Assembly (NCBI RefSeq): GCF_029937855.1
Contig: NZ_JAPYPC010000010.1
Location: 1 to 64,000 of the forward strand
From: Christiangramia sp.
GTDB lineage: Bacteria; Bacteroidota; Bacteroidia; Flavobacteriales; Flavobacteriaceae
DNA: 64,000 nucleotides
Reading direction: 5' to 3'
Positions 1-59,484 of the stretch are shown in pieces (within the stretch, counting starts at the first letter, position 1; each line of letters opens with the position of its first letter). The position numbers were made by a program, and so were the translations under genes. The notes under the pieces were generated by a model. The model was not told the origin of the DNA, searched no databases, and saw nothing but the letters and a program-made list of their open reading frames with translations.

Positions 1-55
1 ATAGGGGTTTGCAAACCCCTATATTTTCTACTTACACAGTTTTTGAGACAGTCCC
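1..55 (-). mobile_element. Terminal end of an insertion sequence whose body lies left of the window
   Basis: Positions 1-22 form a perfect palindrome (half-site ATAGGGGTTTG) followed by a T-rich stretch, which fits a terminator after a transposase gene. Read on the minus strand, 55-31 begins GGGACTGTCTCAAAAACTGT and continues GTAAG, which resembles terminal inverted repeats of IS256-type elements as I remember them. Just to the right an open frame starts mid-protein (see the next entry), as expected if the element inserted into that gene. The transposase and the other end are outside the window, so family and target duplication cannot be checked. Confidence 0.5.
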
Positions 56-52039: not shown

Positions 52040-52609
52040 ATGAAAAATAGAATTTTAAAAGGCGGTATCGCCACAGTAATCGTTTTAACCACAGTAGCAT
52101 TTACAAATTCTAAAAAAGAAGTGGATACTGAGGCCAGCATTATTACCTGGACAGGGGAAAAAGTTACAGGGTCACACAATGGAACTATTAAACTTGAGAG
52201 TGGACATCTAATGATGGAAAACGAGAAAATCGTCGGTGGTGAGTTTGTAATGGATATGAGCAGCATTACTGTAACAGATCTTTCTGGAGAAAACAAGGGA
52301 AAACTGGAAGGACATTTAAAGTCTGAAGATTTTTTTGGAGTTAAAAAACACCCCACTGCTAAACTTGTAATTACCAGTGCAGCCGCAAAAGGAGATGGAA
52401 AATATGGGATTGTTGGAGATCTAACCATTAAAAATGAAACACACCCACTCACTTTTGATCTTGAAATGAATGGAGATTCTGCTAACACACACTTAACCAT
52501 AGATCGTTCAAAATATAATGTGCGTTATGGATCTGGTAGTTTCTTCGATAATTTGGGAGACAAGACCATCTATGACAATTTTGAACTGGACGTGAATCTA
52601 AAGTTCTAG
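52040..52609 (+). CDS. YceI-family protein, exported
   Basis: A 189-residue protein with an N-terminal signal (MKNRILKGGIATVIVLTTVA, cleavage near FTNS). The YceI/lipocalin-like core has IITWTGEKVTGSHNGTIKLE, GGEFVMDMSSITVTDL, GHLKSEDFFGVKKHPTAKL and GDLTIKNETHPLTFDLEM, ending with YDNFELDVNLKF. YceI barrels bind isoprenoid chains such as ubiquinone-like lipids in the periplasm. It follows the nitroreductase by 17 bp. Confidence 0.92.
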   Translation: MKNRILKGGIATVIVLTTVAFTNSKKEVDTEASIITWTGEKVTGSHNGTIKLESGHLMMENEKIVGGEFVMDMSSITVTDLSGENKGKLEGHLKSEDFFGVKKHPTAKLVITSAAAKGDGKYGIVGDLTIKNETHPLTFDLEMNGDSANTHLTIDRSKYNVRYGSGSFFDNLGDKTIYDNFELDVNLKF

Positions 52610-52655
52610 GATATTTACCGGGGTTACTGCCTCGTGATTATTTTTTGAAAAAATG

Positions 52656-52686
52656 TTTGTTTAGAAAAATTTCATCTCTATCTTTG
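52656..52686 (+). promoter_or_regulatory. trp operon promoter
   Basis: TTTG at 52656-52659, exactly 19 bases of spacer, then TATCTTTG at 52679-52686. This is a perfect match to the Bacteroidota consensus TTTG-N19-TAnnTTTG. Transcription would begin just upstream of the leader peptide. Confidence 0.9.
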
Positions 52687-52700
52687 ACCTCATGTTAAAA

Positions 52701-52748
52701 ATGAAAAAAAATAACTGGTGGTGGAATAACTTACGTCAATCTTCGTGA
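52701..52748 (+). CDS. trpL: trp leader peptide (attenuator-coupled)
   Basis: A 15-codon reading frame, MKKNNWWWNNLRQSS, with three consecutive Trp codons at 52716-52724 and a stop at 52746-52748. It lies 14 bp after the promoter -7 box and before a terminator, 82 bases upstream of trpE. The ribosome's progress through the Trp codons is expected to report charged tRNA-Trp supply. The codon cluster and context make this a typical leader peptide, although too short to be found by ordinary gene callers. Confidence 0.88.
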   Translation: MKKNNWWWNNLRQSS

Positions 52749-52810
52749 GCTGAACTGCTATTTTTCAATATAGAAATTATAAAGGCTTGTCTCACGACAA
52801 GCCTTTTTTT
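52743..52810 (+). promoter_or_regulatory. trp attenuator: terminator and antiterminator
   Basis: The terminator stem is AAAGGCTTGTC (52781-52791), loop TCAC, GACAAGCCTTT (52796-52806), followed by T residues to 52810. The segment TCGTGAG (52743-52749), which covers the leader stop codon, is complementary to CTCACGA (52791-52797) in the terminator loop and descending arm. If the ribosome stalls at the Trp codons, TCGTGAG is free to pair and the terminator cannot form; if it reaches the stop codon it hides TCGTGAG and transcription ends. Confidence 0.85.
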
Positions 52811-52830
52811 ATTGCATAAACTAATATTCA

Positions 52831-54225
52831 ATGTTCAAATTAAATACAAAATACAAGAAGATCCTCGCCGATACTATTACACCGGTAAGCATCTATCTAA
52901 AATTAAGGGATAAATACCATAACAGTCTATTATTGGAAAGTAGTGACTATCATGCGAGTGATAATAGCTTTTCTTATATCTGCTGTAATCCCATTGCTTC
53001 TTTTAAAATTGAGAATGAACAAATCACCGAAACTTTTCCAGATGGAAGCATTGAAAAAACACCATTAAACAAATCTGTTTCAGTGCCTGAAGCTATTCAG
53101 AAATTTTCTAAACAATTTAAGGCAGATTCTTCAGAATTCAAGTTTATCAATAATGGCCTGTTTGGATATATCGCCTATGATTCTGTACGATATTTCGAAA
53201 ATGTTGAAGTGACCAGGAAAGAAAAAGACCTTCAGATTCCTGATATTTATTACGCGGTATATCAGAATATTATCGCTATAAATCATTTTAAAAATGAGGC
53301 TTATATTTTCGACCATTCTTATAAGTCAGAAAATAAGATAGATGAAATTGAACAACTACTGAAAGTCAAGAATTTTGCTTCCTATAATTTCAGCAGAAAT
53401 GAAGAAGCGATATCTAATCTCACGGATGAAGAATATAAAAAAGTAGTCCAGGAGGCAAAGGAACATTGCCACCGCGGCGATGTTTTCCAGCTGGTACTTT
53501 CCCGACGATTTTCTCAAAAATTTAAAGGAGATGAATTTAATGTATATCGTGCGCTTCGAAATGTGAACCCTTCCCCTTATCTCTTCTATTTCGACTACGG
53601 AAACTTTAAAATATTCGGAAGTTCTCCCGAAGCTCAATTAATCGTAGATAAAGGCAGGGCCGAAATCCATCCAATTGCAGGTACTTTCAAGAGAACTGGA
53701 AATGATGAAAAAGATGCTGAAATTGCAAAACAATTGGCCGTTGATGAAAAAGAGAATTCAGAACATGTAATGCTGGTAGACCTTGCTCGTAACGATCTAA
53801 GCAGAAACGGTAGCGATGTGAGAGTGGAGAATTATCGTGAAATACAGTTCTTTTCCCATGTAATTCATTTGGTAAGTAAAGTAACAGGCAAAAAAGACCC
53901 TAATGTGCCCACACCCCAAATTGTCGCAGATACTTTTCCTGCCGGAACTTTAAGTGGCGCACCCAAACCCATGGCTTTAAAACTGATCGAAAAATTTGAA
54001 AATGTAAATCGCAGCGCTTACGGCGGAGCTATTGGTTTCATGGATTTTGAAGGCAATTTTAATCATGCGATTATCATTCGCTCCTTTGTAAGCAAAAATC
54101 ATGAATTACATTATCAGGCCGGCGCAGGGATCGTATCTGAATCCAAACCTGAAAATGAATTACAGGAAGTTTATAACAAATTGGGAGCATTAACCAAAGC
54201 TCTCGAAATTGCTGAAGAAATTTAG
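52831..54225 (+). CDS. trpE: Anthranilate synthase component I
   Basis: A 464-residue TrpE, the chorismate-using subunit that makes anthranilate with TrpG. The N-terminal LLLESSD motif (33-39) is the tryptophan feedback-inhibition site. The catalytic half has HRGDVFQLVLSRRFSQKF, NPSPYLFYFDYG, HPIAGTFKRTGND, NSEHVMLVDLARND, and the GTLSGAPKPMAL and AYGGAIGFMDF segments. Both feedback control (here) and attenuation (upstream) are therefore available. It overlaps the open region of trpG slightly. Confidence 0.96.
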   Translation: MFKLNTKYKKILADTITPVSIYLKLRDKYHNSLLLESSDYHASDNSFSYICCNPIASFKIENEQITETFPDGSIEKTPLNKSVSVPEAIQKFSKQFKADSSEFKFINNGLFGYIAYDSVRYFENVEVTRKEKDLQIPDIYYAVYQNIIAINHFKNEAYIFDHSYKSENKIDEIEQLLKVKNFASYNFSRNEEAISNLTDEEYKKVVQEAKEHCHRGDVFQLVLSRRFSQKFKGDEFNVYRALRNVNPSPYLFYFDYGNFKIFGSSPEAQLIVDKGRAEIHPIAGTFKRTGNDEKDAEIAKQLAVDEKENSEHVMLVDLARNDLSRNGSDVRVENYREIQFFSHVIHLVSKVTGKKDPNVPTPQIVADTFPAGTLSGAPKPMALKLIEKFENVNRSAYGGAIGFMDFEGNFNHAIIIRSFVSKNHELHYQAGAGIVSESKPENELQEVYNKLGALTKALEIAEEI

Positions 54226-54235
54226 AATGAAAGAG

Positions 54236-54859
54236 ATGAAAAAAATATTAGTGATAGATAATTACGATTCTTTTGTATACAACCTGGTGCATTATCTGGA
54301 AGAGTTGGACTGCCAGGTCACGGTAAAACGAAACGACCAGCTGCATATTGATGATGTGGAAGAATATGATAAAATACTGCTGTCTCCAGGCCCGGGAATT
54401 CCTGATGAAGCAGGCCTTCTAAAACCAATTATAGAAAAATATGCTTCCTCTAAAAGTATTTTGGGAGTATGCCTAGGAATGCAAGCCATTGGAGAAGTTT
54501 TTGGAGGAAAACTCCTGAATCTTGACGAGGTTTATCATGGAGTAGCTACCAGAATAGATCTTTTTGTAGACGATGAATATATTTTTAAAGATTTGAATAA
54601 CGAATTGCAGGTAGGCCGCTATCATTCCTGGGTGGTTGAAAAGAATTTACCCCCCACCTTGCAGGCTACCAGTTATGATGAGAAAGGCGAAATCATGTCA
54701 CTAAGACATACTGAATTTGATGTAAGGGGAGTACAATTCCACCCTGAATCTGTACTTACACCAGAGGGTAAGAAAATGATCCAAAACTGGGTAGAAGGCC
54801 CATTATCTGATAGTTTTTCAGAAGATAAAAGAACAAAAACAGAAAAAACAATTCAATAA
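54236..54859 (+). CDS. trpG: Anthranilate synthase component II (glutamine amidotransferase)
   Basis: About 207 residues from the ATG at 54236 (MKKILVIDNYDSF), although ATG at 54227 or 54209 is possible. It is a class I glutamine amidotransferase that supplies ammonia to TrpE: LLSPGPGIPDEAG, the nucleophile elbow GVCLGMQ (Cys79), and FHPES with the catalytic His and Glu. An acidic-basic tail (SEDKRTKTEKTIQ) extends beyond the usual end. A REP-like repeat separates it from trpD. Confidence 0.94.
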   Translation: MKKILVIDNYDSFVYNLVHYLEELDCQVTVKRNDQLHIDDVEEYDKILLSPGPGIPDEAGLLKPIIEKYASSKSILGVCLGMQAIGEVFGGKLLNLDEVYHGVATRIDLFVDDEYIFKDLNNELQVGRYHSWVVEKNLPPTLQATSYDEKGEIMSLRHTEFDVRGVQFHPESVLTPEGKKMIQNWVEGPLSDSFSEDKRTKTEKTIQ

Positions 54860-54869
54860 AATGTTAGCT

Positions 54870-54930
54870 CGTCATCCTGAATTTATTTCAGGATCTTATG
54901 AGAAGCTGAAACAGGTTGAAAGATCAGATA
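54870..54930. repeat. REP-like two-hairpin repeat, copy B (between trpG and trpD)
   Basis: CGTCATCCTGAATTTATTTC followed by AGGATCTTATGAGAAGCTGAAACAGGTTGAAAG. The first hairpin (CCTGAA/TTCAGG) is intact; the second is weaker than in copy C. It lies inside the trp operon, so it could influence mRNA processing. Confidence 0.7.
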
Positions 54931-54949
54931 TCAGATAGATTTAAAAAGA

Positions 54950-55945
54950 ATGAAAGAATTATTAAACAGGTTAATTAGTCATGAGACCATAAGTACCGAA
55001 GAAGCCAAGCAGGTTATTTTCAACATTTCTGAAGGAAAATATAATGAAACCCAGATCGCGGCTTTTCTTACGGTTTATATGATGCGCAGCATAACCATTG
55101 AAGAGCTTGAAGGATTCCGGGATGCTTTGCTTGAATTATGTATAAAAGTTGATCTTTCAGCATATGAAGCTGTCGATCTTTGCGGAACCGGCGGCGATGG
55201 CAAAGACACCTTCAATATTTCCACTACTTCCTCTTTTGTTACTGCAGGTTCCGGGGTGAAGGTTGCCAAGCATGGAAATTACGGAGTTTCTTCGGTTAGT
55301 GGAAGTTCCAACGTAATGGAGCACCTGGGCATCAAATTTAGTAAGGATGCTGTTTTTTTAGAGAGATGTATAGATAAAGCTGGTATTTGTGTTTTGCACG
55401 CCCCATTATTTCATCCGGCTATGAAGAATGTTGCACCAGTAAGAAAAAGTCTGGCTGTAAAAACTTTCTTTAATATGCTGGGGCCAATGGTGAACCCTGC
55501 ATTTCCAAAAAATCAGTTAGTAGGAGTTTTTAACCTTGAACTGGCCCGGATGTACGCCTACCTTTATCAAAATACCAATAAAAATTATACTATTTTGCAC
55601 GCCTTAGATGGTTATGATGAAATCTCCCTTACCGGGGAAACTAAAAGCATCAGTAATCATTCTGAAAGAATATTAAAACCTTCAGATTTTGGAGTTTCAG
55701 AATTAAAGATGTCTGAAATTGCCGGTGGTGGTTCCATAGAAAGTGCCGCTAAAATCCTAACCAGTATTCTGCAGGGAAATGGATCTGAGGCTCAGAATAA
55801 TGTGGTTTGCGCCAATGCCGGAATGGCCATTGCGACTTCAAGAAATTTGAGTCCGCAGGAAGGTTTCCAGTCAGCAAAAGAATCACTCGAATCTGGAAAA
55901 GCTTTTGAAAGTTTCAAAAAATTACAGGAATTAAGTCAGAAATAA
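54950..55945 (+). CDS. trpD: Anthranilate phosphoribosyltransferase
   Basis: A 331-residue enzyme joining PRPP to anthranilate. The glycosyltransferase-3 fold shows the helical N-terminus (TEEAKQVIFNISEGKYNETQ-like segments), the PRPP loop CGTGGDGKDTFNIST, KHGNYGVSSVSGSSNVMEHL and PLFHPAMKNVAPVRK. The stop is directly followed by the trpC start codon (no gap). Length is usual. Confidence 0.95.
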   Translation: MKELLNRLISHETISTEEAKQVIFNISEGKYNETQIAAFLTVYMMRSITIEELEGFRDALLELCIKVDLSAYEAVDLCGTGGDGKDTFNISTTSSFVTAGSGVKVAKHGNYGVSSVSGSSNVMEHLGIKFSKDAVFLERCIDKAGICVLHAPLFHPAMKNVAPVRKSLAVKTFFNMLGPMVNPAFPKNQLVGVFNLELARMYAYLYQNTNKNYTILHALDGYDEISLTGETKSISNHSERILKPSDFGVSELKMSEIAGGGSIESAAKILTSILQGNGSEAQNNVVCANAGMAIATSRNLSPQEGFQSAKESLESGKAFESFKKLQELSQK

Positions 55946-56734
55946 ATGAATATCCTCGATAAAATTATTGCAGATAAATTTAAAGAAGTTGAATTAAAGA
56001 AATCGCTCATTCCGGTGCCGCAACTTGAAAATTCGGTATTATTTAAAAGGGAATGTATTTCTTTAGCTGAAAACCTTAAGAAAGGATCAGGAATTATAGC
56101 AGAGCATAAAAGAAGGTCCCCTTCAAAATCGGTGATCAATCAAAGTCTGAATGTTCAGGAGGTGGCCAAAGGATATGAAGAAGCCGGGGTATCAGGAATT
56201 TCAGTGCTTACTGATGGGAAATATTTTGGTGGCTCTTTAGAAGATTTGCTTTATGCCAGAGCTTCGGTAGAAATCCCTATTCTTCGGAAGGAATTCATGA
56301 TAGACGAATATCAGGTTTTGGAAGCAAAATCCTTTGGGGCAGATGCCATTCTTTTGATCGCTGCAGTTTTAACTGAAAAACAATTAATTTATCTTGCAGA
56401 TATTGCAAAAAACCTTGGTATGGATGTCCTTCTGGAAATCCATAATGAAGAAGAATTGCAAAAATCACTGAAAGTAAATGCTGATATGATAGGCGTGAAT
56501 AATCGTAGTCTAAAAACTTTTGAAGTTAGTATTGATACTTCGAAGGTTCTGGCGAAGCTTATCCCAGATGAGTTTGTAAAGGTTTCTGAAAGCGGAATAA
56601 GTAGCACTTCAGCTATAGCAGACCTTAAAAGTTATGGTTTTAAGGGCTTTTTGATTGGAGAGAATTTTATGAAAACAGACAATCCGGGAGCCGCAGCAAA
56701 AGAGTTTATTACAGAATTAAAATCTATTGTATAA
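55946..56734 (+). CDS. trpC: Indole-3-glycerol phosphate synthase
   Basis: A 262-residue TIM-barrel enzyme that closes the indole ring. Visible motifs: IIAEHKRRSPSKSVIN (catalytic Lys and the phosphate loop), GISVLTDGKYFGGSLEDL, PILRKEFMIDEYQVLEA, DAILLIAAVL, LEIHNEEEL, IGVNNRSLKTF and KVSESGISS. The start codon abuts the trpD stop. It is a separate gene, not fused to trpF. Confidence 0.95.
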   Translation: MNILDKIIADKFKEVELKKSLIPVPQLENSVLFKRECISLAENLKKGSGIIAEHKRRSPSKSVINQSLNVQEVAKGYEEAGVSGISVLTDGKYFGGSLEDLLYARASVEIPILRKEFMIDEYQVLEAKSFGADAILLIAAVLTEKQLIYLADIAKNLGMDVLLEIHNEEELQKSLKVNADMIGVNNRSLKTFEVSIDTSKVLAKLIPDEFVKVSESGISSTSAIADLKSYGFKGFLIGENFMKTDNPGAAAKEFITELKSIV

Positions 56735-57448
56735 ATGGATCATATGAATACCAAAGCAAAATCACTGATAACTCCCGCATCGGGCCAGAGTTCAGGCTTA
56801 AGCTTAAAAGTTTGCGGAATGCAACAGCCCGGGAATATCCTTCAGGTTTCTGAATTGCAACCAGATTATATGGGGCTTATCTTTTATGATAAATCGCCCA
56901 GGTATTTTGATGGCGAACTCCCGGAAATCGTTCCTGAAATTAAAAAAGCCGGAGTATTTGTGAATGCATCTATCCCAGAAATCAAGGAAAAGGTATCGAA
57001 ATACAATCTGAATGCAGTTCAGCTTCATGGAGATGAATCGGCTGCATTTGCGAAAGATCTTAAGAGGGAACTTCAAAAACTGGGAAATACACCAGAGATC
57101 ATTAAAGTGTTTTCAGTGGGCGATGATTTCGATTTTCAGATAATTAAGGCTTTTGAAGGGATTGTAGATTATTTTCTTTTTGATACTAAAGGGGCACTTC
57201 GGGGCGGAAATGGCACTGAATTCGATTGGAAAATATTAGAAAACTACCCTTCCAACACGCCATTCTTTTTAAGTGGCGGCATTGGTCCTGAACATGGAAA
57301 AGCCATCGCAGAACTTAAAAATCATTTTTTAAGAAATGGTAAACCCGGATTACTGTATGCCGTAGATGTAAACAGTAAATTTGAACTAAAACCCGGATTA
57401 AAAAAATTAAAGGAATTGAAAGATTTCAAAACTCAGATAAATTCATAA
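56735..57448 (+). CDS. trpF: Phosphoribosylanthranilate isomerase
   Basis: A 237-residue TIM barrel performing the Amadori step. The core begins at [12 protein letters not shown] (catalytic Cys), with [48 protein letters not shown] (catalytic Asp) and [12 protein letters not shown]. The first 24 residues are an extra, low-complexity leader; ATG at 56744 is an alternative start. The trpC stop is directly adjacent. Confidence 0.93.
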
Positions 57449-57449
57449 A

Positions 57450-58631
57450 ATGAGCTATCAGGTTGATGAAAAAGGATATTACGGAGATTTTGGCGGTGCC
57501 TATATTCCCGAAATGCTATATCCAAACGTGGAAGAATTGCGTTCCAGATATTTAGATATCATGCAGGAAGAATCTTTTCAGAAGGAGTTTAAAGAACTTC
57601 TGAGAGAATATGTGGGACGTCCTACTCCACTCTACTACGCGAAAAGATTTAGTGAGAAATATGGTACAAAGGTTTATCTAAAAAGAGAAGATCTTTGTCA
57701 TACTGGCGCTCACAAAGTGAATAATACCATTGGGCAAATTCTGATGGCCCAAAAACTTGGCAAAAAAAGAATTATTGCTGAAACCGGAGCAGGTCAACAT
57801 GGTGTAGCGACGGCCACTGTGTGCGCATTAATGGGAATGGAATGTATTGTTTATATGGGCGAGATCGATATAGACAGGCAGGCGCCCAATGTTGCTCGTA
57901 TGAAGATGCTCGGTGCGAAAGTGGTGCCGGCAAAATCTGGTAGTCGCACGCTAAAAGATGCTACCAACGAAGCGATTCGAGACTGGATCAATAATCCAGT
58001 AGATACACATTATATCATCGGTTCTGTGGTGGGACCTCATCCCTATCCCGATATGGTCGCCAGATTTCAGGCGGTAATTTCTGAAGAGATCAAAGTTCAG
58101 TTAAAGGAAAAAGAAGGCAAGGAAGATCCAGATTATGTTGTGGCCTGTGTTGGTGGCGGAAGCAATGCCGCCGGAGCCTATTATCACTACCTTGACAAAC
58201 CAGAGGTAGGAATTATTGCCGTGGAAGCTGCCGGGAAAGGGATCGATTCCGGAGAAAGCGCGGCTACTTCGGCATTAGGAAAAGCAGGTATCATTCACGG
58301 AAGTAAAACTTTACTGATGCAAACCGGCGATGGGCAGATCACCGAACCCTATTCCATATCTGCAGGACTGGATTACCCAGGCGTTGGGCCCATGCATGCA
58401 AATTTATATGCCAGCGGTCGCGGAGAATTTATCAGTATTACTGATGAAGCGGCAATGAAAGCCGGGCTGGAACTGGCGAAACTGGAAGGAATTATTCCGG
58501 CTATTGAAACTTCCCACGCCCTGGCAATTTTTGAAACCCGAAAATTTAAAAAAGATGATATCGTTGTGGTAAATCTTTCCGGGCGCGGGGATAAAGATCT
58601 GAACACATATATTGAATATTTTAATCTATAA
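57450..58631 (+). CDS. trpB: Tryptophan synthase beta subunit
   Basis: A 393-residue PLP enzyme that joins indole to serine. It has [11 protein letters not shown] near the start, [12 protein letters not shown], the PLP lysine in [28 protein letters not shown], and the phosphate-binding [13 protein letters not shown]. The conserved ETSHALA and the closing [10 protein letters not shown] are present. It begins 1 bp after the trpF stop. It is followed by a REP-like repeat, then trpA. Confidence 0.97.
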
Positions 58632-58635
58632 TACA

Positions 58636-58693
58636 CGTCACGCTGAATTTATTTCAGCGTCTCATGAGATTCTGAAACGAGTTCAGAATGACG
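58636..58693. repeat. REP-like two-hairpin repeat, copy C (between trpB and trpA)
   Basis: Outer ends CGTCA (58636-58640) and TGACG (58689-58693) pair. Inside are two hairpins: CGCTGAA-TTTA-TTTCAGCG and ATTCTGAA-ACGAG-TTCAGAAT. This is the best-preserved copy and folds as a three-way structure. Confidence 0.8.
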
Positions 58694-58713
58694 GCTCTAA
58701 GAATTTTTGAAGA

Positions 58714-59484
58714 ATGAATAGAATAAATAAAAAATTGCAGGAAGATCATAAACTGCTTTCCATATATTTTACGGCAGGTTATCCAGATTTCGGTGATACC
58801 GAAAAGATCATTGTAGACCTGGAAAAAAATGGAGTGGATTTCATTGAAATTGGGCTTCCTTTTAGTGATCCTCTTGCAGATGGCCCCACTATTCAGGAGA
58901 GTTCTACAAATGCACTTAAGAATGGTATGACTACTGCAAAATTATTTGAGCAGTTAGAGGGCATCCGGAATAAAGTTGAAATCCCTCTAATTATGATGGG
59001 TTATTTTAACCCTATTCTGCAATATGGTGTGGAAGAATTTTGCAGAAAATGTGAGTCGGTTGGAATTGACGGACTTATTATTCCAGATCTACCGGTAGAT
59101 GTTTATCACGACGAATACCAGGAGTTATTCGAAAAATATGGATTGAAAAATATTTTTTTGATCACCCCACAAACTTCAGATGAACGAATTCGTTTTATCG
59201 ATTCTGTATCAAACGGGTTCATTTATATGGTGAGCAGCGCCAGCGTGACAGGTTCTACTTCTGGATTTAGTGAAGACACAAAATCTTATTTTAAGAGAAT
59301 AAATGATCTTCAGCTTAAAAACCCTCAAATTGTAGGCTTCGGAATAAAAGATAAAGAAACTTTTGAGCAGGCTACAGAATATGCAAAAGGAGCGATCATA
59401 GGAAGTGCTTTCATTAAGCATTTGAATGAGAACGGAACGGAAACAATTAAATCCTTCGTTCAAAATGTTAAAGCTTTAACCTAA
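58714..59484 (+). CDS. trpA: Tryptophan synthase alpha subunit
   Basis: A 256-residue TIM barrel that cleaves indole-3-glycerol phosphate. The catalytic Glu is in FIEIGLPFSDPLADGP (with the second Asp), followed by PLIMMGYFNPILQYG, GLIIPDLPVD, ITPQTSDERI, GFIYMVSSASVTGS and a final VGFGIKDKET plus GAIIGSAFIKHL. It lies 82 bp after trpB because of the inserted repeat. It completes the trpEGDCFBA set. Confidence 0.96.
   Translation: MNRINKKLQEDHKLLSIYFTAGYPDFGDTEKIIVDLEKNGVDFIEIGLPFSDPLADGPTIQESSTNALKNGMTTAKLFEQLEGIRNKVEIPLIMMGYFNPILQYGVEEFCRKCESVGIDGLIIPDLPVDVYHDEYQELFEKYGLKNIFLITPQTSDERIRFIDSVSNGFIYMVSSASVTGSTSGFSEDTKSYFKRINDLQLKNPQIVGFGIKDKETFEQATEYAKGAIIGSAFIKHLNENGTETIKSFVQNVKALT

Follow-up and report, generated by a model that had tools for sequence, protein, structure and literature searches.

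In the trp leader of Escherichia coli (trpL), a leader peptide with adjacent Trp codons is followed by RNA segments that can form the alternative 1:2, 2:3 and 3:4 pairings, and the transcript carries a normal 5' UTR. In Sinorhizobium meliloti, which belongs to a different phylum from the organism studied here, the 5' end of the trpL RNA coincides with the ATG of the leader ORF (PMC7298713), as we predict for our locus. For Bacteroidota, the closest described element is RF01692 (Bacteroid-trp), published in 2010 in a table (Weinberg et al., PMC2864571), which likewise sits upstream of trp genes and comprises a leader ORF and a 5' terminator arm. Its model ends at that arm (position 131, GGCUUGUC), so the full terminator and the 2:3 pairing are left unmodelled. 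Bacteroid-trp has been placed before trp in Flavobacterium psychrophilum and likened to E. coli attenuation (PMC6414381), and another study of this species reports strong clues to leader-peptide attenuation before amino-acid operons (PMC9723704); the section of the latter on cis-regulatory RNAs gives no pairing, its main text contains neither 'trp' nor 'Bacteroid-trp', and 'Bacteroid' is absent from the main text of PMC2965389. In the part of the literature covered, we found no report of a loop-capture pairing, a spacing rule or a leaderless trp leader in the phylum; the 2010 supplement may describe the terminator. What the present analysis adds to RF01692 is a proposed class-wide spacing rule, the drift of the terminator part that is caught, and a predicted leaderless start.

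Elements of the probable attenuator in the window

The window, by which we mean the whole stretch of 64,000 nucleotides analysed here, comes from a Christiangramia genome of 99.89% completeness whose closest named relatives by TrpE are Christiangramia/Gramella. On its plus strand, trpE, trpG, trpD, trpC, trpF, trpB and trpA (52831..59484) constitute the regulated operon, and this NCBIfam assignment bears out the trp identity that had been proposed in an earlier note made from the letters of the DNA. The cut-offs were exceeded for the trpG/pabA subfamily, trpD, trpC, trpB and trpA; trpE and trpF were the best NCBIfam matches at their places, yet fell below cut-off. The attenuator lies in the intergenic gap between the end of the upstream ORF (52609) and the trpE ATG (52831). 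The Rfam covariance model of RF01692 matched 52672-52791 with 63.3 bits (cut-off 49), and the trpE ATG follows 40 nt downstream of the end of the match, which places the element before trp genes in Bacteroidota, as in the family. Since the element is an instance of RF01692, its kind is already known, and we regard it as an ordinary, well-supported trp attenuator of a known family. In the alignment, the RF01692 consensus hairpin contains many non-standard pairs in the window, and its inner part corresponds to the 1:2 hairpin described below. A second RF01692 copy was not found in the genome among the 150 of 1085 first-look candidates that were scored. Right behind the upstream ORF, at 52619-52634, there is another terminator-like hairpin, possibly the terminator of that gene.

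All elements that follow are on the plus strand. Three adjacent Trp codons (TGGTGGTGG, 52716..52724), the putative sensor, lie within a short leader ORF and are followed by region 1 (CTTACG, 52730..52735), which pairs in the minimum free energy fold with CGTGAG of region 2, the candidate antiterminator strand TCGTGAG (52743..52749), whose start lies 27 nt downstream of the initial base of the first Trp codon. Downstream lies an intrinsic terminator hairpin of 11 bp at 52781..52806 (AAAGGCTTGTC[TCAC]GACAAGCCTTT; loop TCAC; -15.6 kcal/mol) with a T run at 52804-52810. Region 3 (CTCACGA, 52791..52797), the complement of region 2, comprises the loop together with the final base of the 5' arm on one side and the initial two bases of the 3' arm on the other. 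Region 2 of the window is thus directed at the loop and the beginning of the 3' arm, whereas region 2 of E. coli trpL pairs with the 5' terminator arm (CGGGC/GCCCG).

The earlier note had read a terminator with a T tract here, and the hairpin stands above chance: there were 3 terminator-like sites in 52500-53000, two of them the two strands of the attenuator hairpin, against 0.2 in shuffles. The leader fold had a z of -4.4 relative to shuffles, and a short W(x)W ORF followed by a terminator occurred in 2 of 180 window tiles, one of which was the attenuator. The 7-bp match between leader and loop, taken in the window alone, was weakly significant (p 0.045); relatives were consulted for this reason, and it is from them that the significance of the pairing derives. 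With an ORF carrying sensor codons, an intrinsic terminator, an antiterminator strand beyond the place of a stalled ribosome and a 1:2 protector hairpin, the element very probably controls trpEGDCFBA by ribosome-mediated transcription attenuation of the kind known from E. coli trp.

Spread of the architecture among relatives

RF01692 was detected in 60 of 119 genomes, our own included, with 49 above cut-off. We also assembled a sample anchored on TrpE and chosen without Rfam, which consisted of the 80 nearest named loci (nearly all Flavobacteriaceae by record titles), 60 class-wide loci and the window (141 in all). The class-wide loci were drawn from 63 TrpE places besides the window, found in 63 of 197 genomes at E<=1e-80; three of these places, namely G170 and G277 (with a contig edge no more than 19 and 331 bases away) and G291, were not included. 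Of the 141 loci, 129 had a W(x)W leader followed by a terminator, and our script did not find the element in the other 12. Upstream sequence was short in L100 (35 nt), L137 (165 nt) and L160 (158 nt). The upstream sequence of L180, L185, L188 and L196 resembles, by eye, the 3' end of a gene, which we take to be trpB-like, and no leader was seen by eye in the upstream sequence of L147 and L149. By the same kind of reading, L155 and L162 have a leader with a single Trp codon and L193 has a W-C-C leader.

Among class-wide pieces of at least 600 nt, leader and terminator were found together in 49 of 58 in the forward direction and in 1 of 58 when reversed. Of the 60 class-wide loci, 50 had the attenuator architecture, including 44 of the 54 that lie outside the family of the window. 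RF01692 scored above cut-off in 5 of the 60, all among the 6 loci of the window's family, and reached cut-off in none of the 54 trpE loci outside it. Elsewhere, the model does extend beyond this family, with genome G103 and the Bacteroides control above cut-off.

The three Trp codons claimed for the leader proved conserved: WWW was present in all 79 element-bearing loci made up of the named TrpE relatives and the window. In the 50 class-wide loci that carry the element, adjacent Trp codons were found in 42 and Trp codons one codon apart in 8. In L145, L150, L152, L153, L154, L157, L173 and L177, WCW, WRW or WLW leaders take the place of WW. The Trp codons lie 115 nt upstream of trpE in the window and 469-564 nt upstream in L074, L076, L077, L092, L095, L099, L101, L115, L122 and L132, loci that are titled Salegentibacter, Muricauda, Flagellimonas and, in one case, Flavobacteriaceae. 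In the class-wide locus L183, a tRNA gene match (90-160) is located upstream of trpE.

For the comparisons below, sets of representatives were formed at <70% identity (n = 35), <60% (n = 9) and <80% (n = 55), together with a set of 13 defined by a more lenient identity measure.

Leader start, promoter and stop codon

The leader ORF (MLKMKKNNWWWNNLRQSS) spans 52692..52748 and measures 18 codons plus stop from its first ATG (52692) or 15 codons from its second (52701). In 97 of 129 loci, an ATG stands 24 nt upstream of the first Trp codon, at the place of the upstream start; an ATG at 15 nt was seen in 10 of 129, namely the window, eight Christiangramia/Gramella loci and the distant locus L197; the eight Christiangramia/Gramella loci retain the upstream ATG as well. 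The upstream ATG is therefore most likely the leader start, as judged from its conservation, and the leader comprises 18 residues instead of the 15 given in the earlier note. We rejected the second ATG as the main start on these counts; within the genus it could serve as an additional start.

The promoter that had been proposed for the leader is recognizable at 52656..52686, with TTTG (-33) at 52656-52659 and the -7 box TATCTTTG at 52679-52686. It corresponds to the promoter consensus described for Bacteroidota (TTTG / TAnnTTTG; PMC6847099). An exact TAnnTTTG within 110 nt upstream of the Trp codons was found in 115 of 129 loci, compared to 7.5% of shuffles. A TAHHTTTG box within 60 nt upstream of the Trp codons was present in 108 of 129, and the gap between this box and the first in-frame ATG was 4-6 nt in 51, 7-8 nt in 17 and 14-21 nt in 27 of these 108. 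Among the 35 representatives, 12 lacked an exact box within 60 nt and 15 had a gap of 4-8 nt, so the short gap is common in this set and not universal. In the window, the gap between the -7 box and the upstream leader ATG is 5 nt (52679-52703 region); the identical gap occurs in 38 of the 79 element-bearing loci comprising the named relatives and the window.

At probable promoters of F. johnsoniae, transcription starts 4-5 nt past the -7 box (PMC6847099). Combined with the 5-nt gap of the window, this distance puts +1 at 52691 or 52692, and the leader transcript is thus predicted to be nearly leaderless, beginning on the ATG or one base before it. With its AUG at +1 or +2, the predicted transcript would be unlike that of E. 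coli trpL. Leaderless mRNAs are uncommon across the phylum: they make up 5.5% in F. psychrophilum (PMC9723704), and 5' UTRs of <10 nt account for about 3.7% in Bacteroides thetaiotaomicron (PMC7366714).

The stop codon of the leader (TGA, 52746-52748) sits inside TCGTGAG, and the earlier note had seen in this overlap a compact design in which the antiterminator uses the stop codon itself. The relatives speak against this reading. In the 85 nearest loci (L061-L146 with the element, and the window), a CGTGA motif was present in 84, starting 26-28 nt downstream of the base that precedes the first Trp codon, while its start relative to the stop codon varied, being -3 in 64, -7 or -8 in 17, +3 in 1 and +6 in 2 of these 84 loci. 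In representatives with region 2 at W+20..28, the start of region 2 ranged from -29 to +6 relative to the stop. Because the position of the stop drifts among loci, we rejected it as a working part of the antiterminator; judged from these sequences, its overlap with region 2 is incidental, an accident of the lineage and no principle of design.

Pairing, folding and proposed mechanism

Pairing of TCGTGAG with the terminator loop had been claimed from the window alone, and the relatives now supply its covariation. In the 35 representatives, the helix between leader and terminator was more stable with the cognate partner than with swapped ones (-13.70 vs. -9.87 kcal/mol; z -8.7, p 1e-4), and the cognate-versus-swapped z was -3.8, -10.8 and -4.05 in the sets of 9, 55 and 13, respectively. 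The 1:2 duplex behaved alike in the 35 representatives (-11.1 vs. -8.5 kcal/mol; z -6.6). Close to the window, region 2 is almost invariant, so the local covariation rests on a few variants such as L039, in which region 1 (ATTGCGA), region 2 (TTGTCGCAAT) and the loop with the 3' arm (ATTGCGACAA) changed together. Taken one by one, 40 of 104 loci reached p<0.05 and 6 of 104 reached p<0.01; 7 of 111 loci had been dropped from this test since no terminator was found. The terminator stem itself (GGCTTGTC/GACAAGCC) is near-invariant among the near relatives (the window and L001-L060), which seems unusual for a terminator stem, and compensated stem variants are few (L037, L038 and L057).

The distance between Trp codons and region 2 was steadier than the sequences. 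Region 2 started at W+20..28 in 27 of 35 representatives, compared to 17% in shuffles, and the best helix lay outside this range in 8 of 35. The same helix search placed region 2 of the E. coli trpL control at W+20, within the range seen here. The leading edge of a ribosome lies about 12-15 nt past the A site, and the observed spacing fits this figure: region 2 would be free when the ribosome is stalled on the Trp codons and covered when it stands at most of the stops. Together with the covariation of the two alternative pairings, the spacing agrees with the geometry of ribosome-mediated attenuation that had been read from the window.

The part of the terminator that is caught differs among loci. 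The named relatives mostly have as target the loop plus the opening bases of the 3' arm (CTCACGA, TTCACGA); in the class-wide loci L148, L151, L156, L158, L186, L189, L191, L192, L194 and L197, the target is made up of the loop and the adjoining end of the 5' arm, around GCTGTTC; and other loci have targets that span most of one terminator arm. Seven distant loci (L163, L164, L165, L172, L174, L190 and L199) have their stop codon 23-29 nt downstream of the point where region 2 begins, and a ribosome standing there would scarcely cover region 2; simple masking does not account for these loci, which would depend on renewed formation of the 1:2 hairpin behind the ribosome. On balance, we favour the view that the sampled Bacteroidia share a class-wide trp attenuator, mostly missed by RF01692, in which the ruler of W+20-28 is held steady as in E. 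coli, and the antiterminator and terminator sequences, the position of the stop and the portion of the terminator that is caught, be it 5' arm, loop or 3' arm, drift in concert, with loop capture and a leaderless leader in the lineage of the window.

The sequence of events that we propose for the window is as follows. Transcription would start at the leader AUG or one base before it, so that a ribosome would load on a nearly leaderless transcript and translate the 18-codon leader. When charged tRNA-Trp is scarce, the ribosome would stall on the Trp codons and cover region 1 (CTTACG); since region 2 starts 27 nt past the first Trp codon, it would lie just beyond the leading edge of this ribosome, free to catch the loop as it emerges together with the beginning of the 3' arm (CTCACGA). 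Nucleation of the terminator would thereby be blocked, and RNA polymerase would read into trpE. When Trp is plentiful, the ribosome would reach the stop codon and mask region 2, and the terminator would form; it should form too when the leader is not translated, with region 1 paired to region 2.

Folding in the presence of a ribosome is consistent with parts of this scheme. With a ribosome on the Trp codons (52716) and the RNA extended to 52797, region 2 held the loop in an extended antiterminator of -12.4 kcal/mol, and with the ribosome at the stop, the extended structure was lost. We then compared two states, with the ribosome at the Trp codons or at the stop, by the computed probability of upstream pairing of the emerging loop. 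The window gave 0.84 in the stalled state and 0.35 at the stop. For the 35 representatives, the means were 0.58 and 0.36, as opposed to 0.36 and 0.40 with a shuffled spacer, and the probability exceeded 0.5 in 21 of 35 when stalled and in 10 of 35 at the stop. The stalled value was above the stop value in 109 of 129 loci. In this folding model, the separation of the two states is real on average and not universal.

With the 3' arm transcribed, the terminator (-15.6 kcal/mol alone) won at equilibrium in every state that was folded, the stalled ribosome included (ribosome positions to one or two bases). Antitermination must therefore be a kinetic race or act by steric or topological means; we infer a race in which region 2 would take the loop before the stem nucleates, with antiterminator and terminator mutually exclusive. 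It is less probable, though it deserves some weight, that leader and loop pair as a pseudoknot while the terminator stem persists, so that the stem is modulated and not replaced: beyond the loop, the pairing in the window takes only one base from the 5' arm and two from the 3' arm, and most of the stem is formally free. With no linker between a 7-bp loop helix and the 3' arm, however, there should be no room to cross the groove, and such a helix should exclude the stem; in loci where the target includes much of an arm, coexistence is impossible, yet region 2 keeps the same position after the Trp codons.

The equilibrium result would also suit a terminator that is constitutive or under the control of a protein (TrpR, TRAP or another factor), with the Trp-rich ORF not acting as a sensor. 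We consider this very improbable, as the sampled class conserves the Trp codons together with their spacing from region 2 and the two alternative pairings, and family matches to TrpR (PF01371) and TRAP (PF02081) were absent from the genome. Some trp genes of other phyla are under T-box control, but direct binding of uncharged tRNA-Trp to the leader deserves next to no credence here, given a short leader with a conserved Trp-rich ORF and no match to RF00230 at gathering score in the window or among the 150 of 197 first-look candidates scored in the genome.

Attenuation by a ribosome on the leader, the reading that we prefer, works only if the first ribosome keeps up with RNA polymerase. Conservation and covariation of the attenuator across the class are accordingly evidence of close coupling between transcription and translation, at least at the trp locus, in a phylum without Shine-Dalgarno initiation, and the leaderless start, if true, would offer a simple route to early loading of the ribosome. 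The steady spacing between Trp codons and antiterminator also provides a search rule that finds attenuators where a sequence model fails. As for other runs of codons, four consecutive His codons occur at 35 places in the genome of the window, compared to 19 for the reversed-pattern control.
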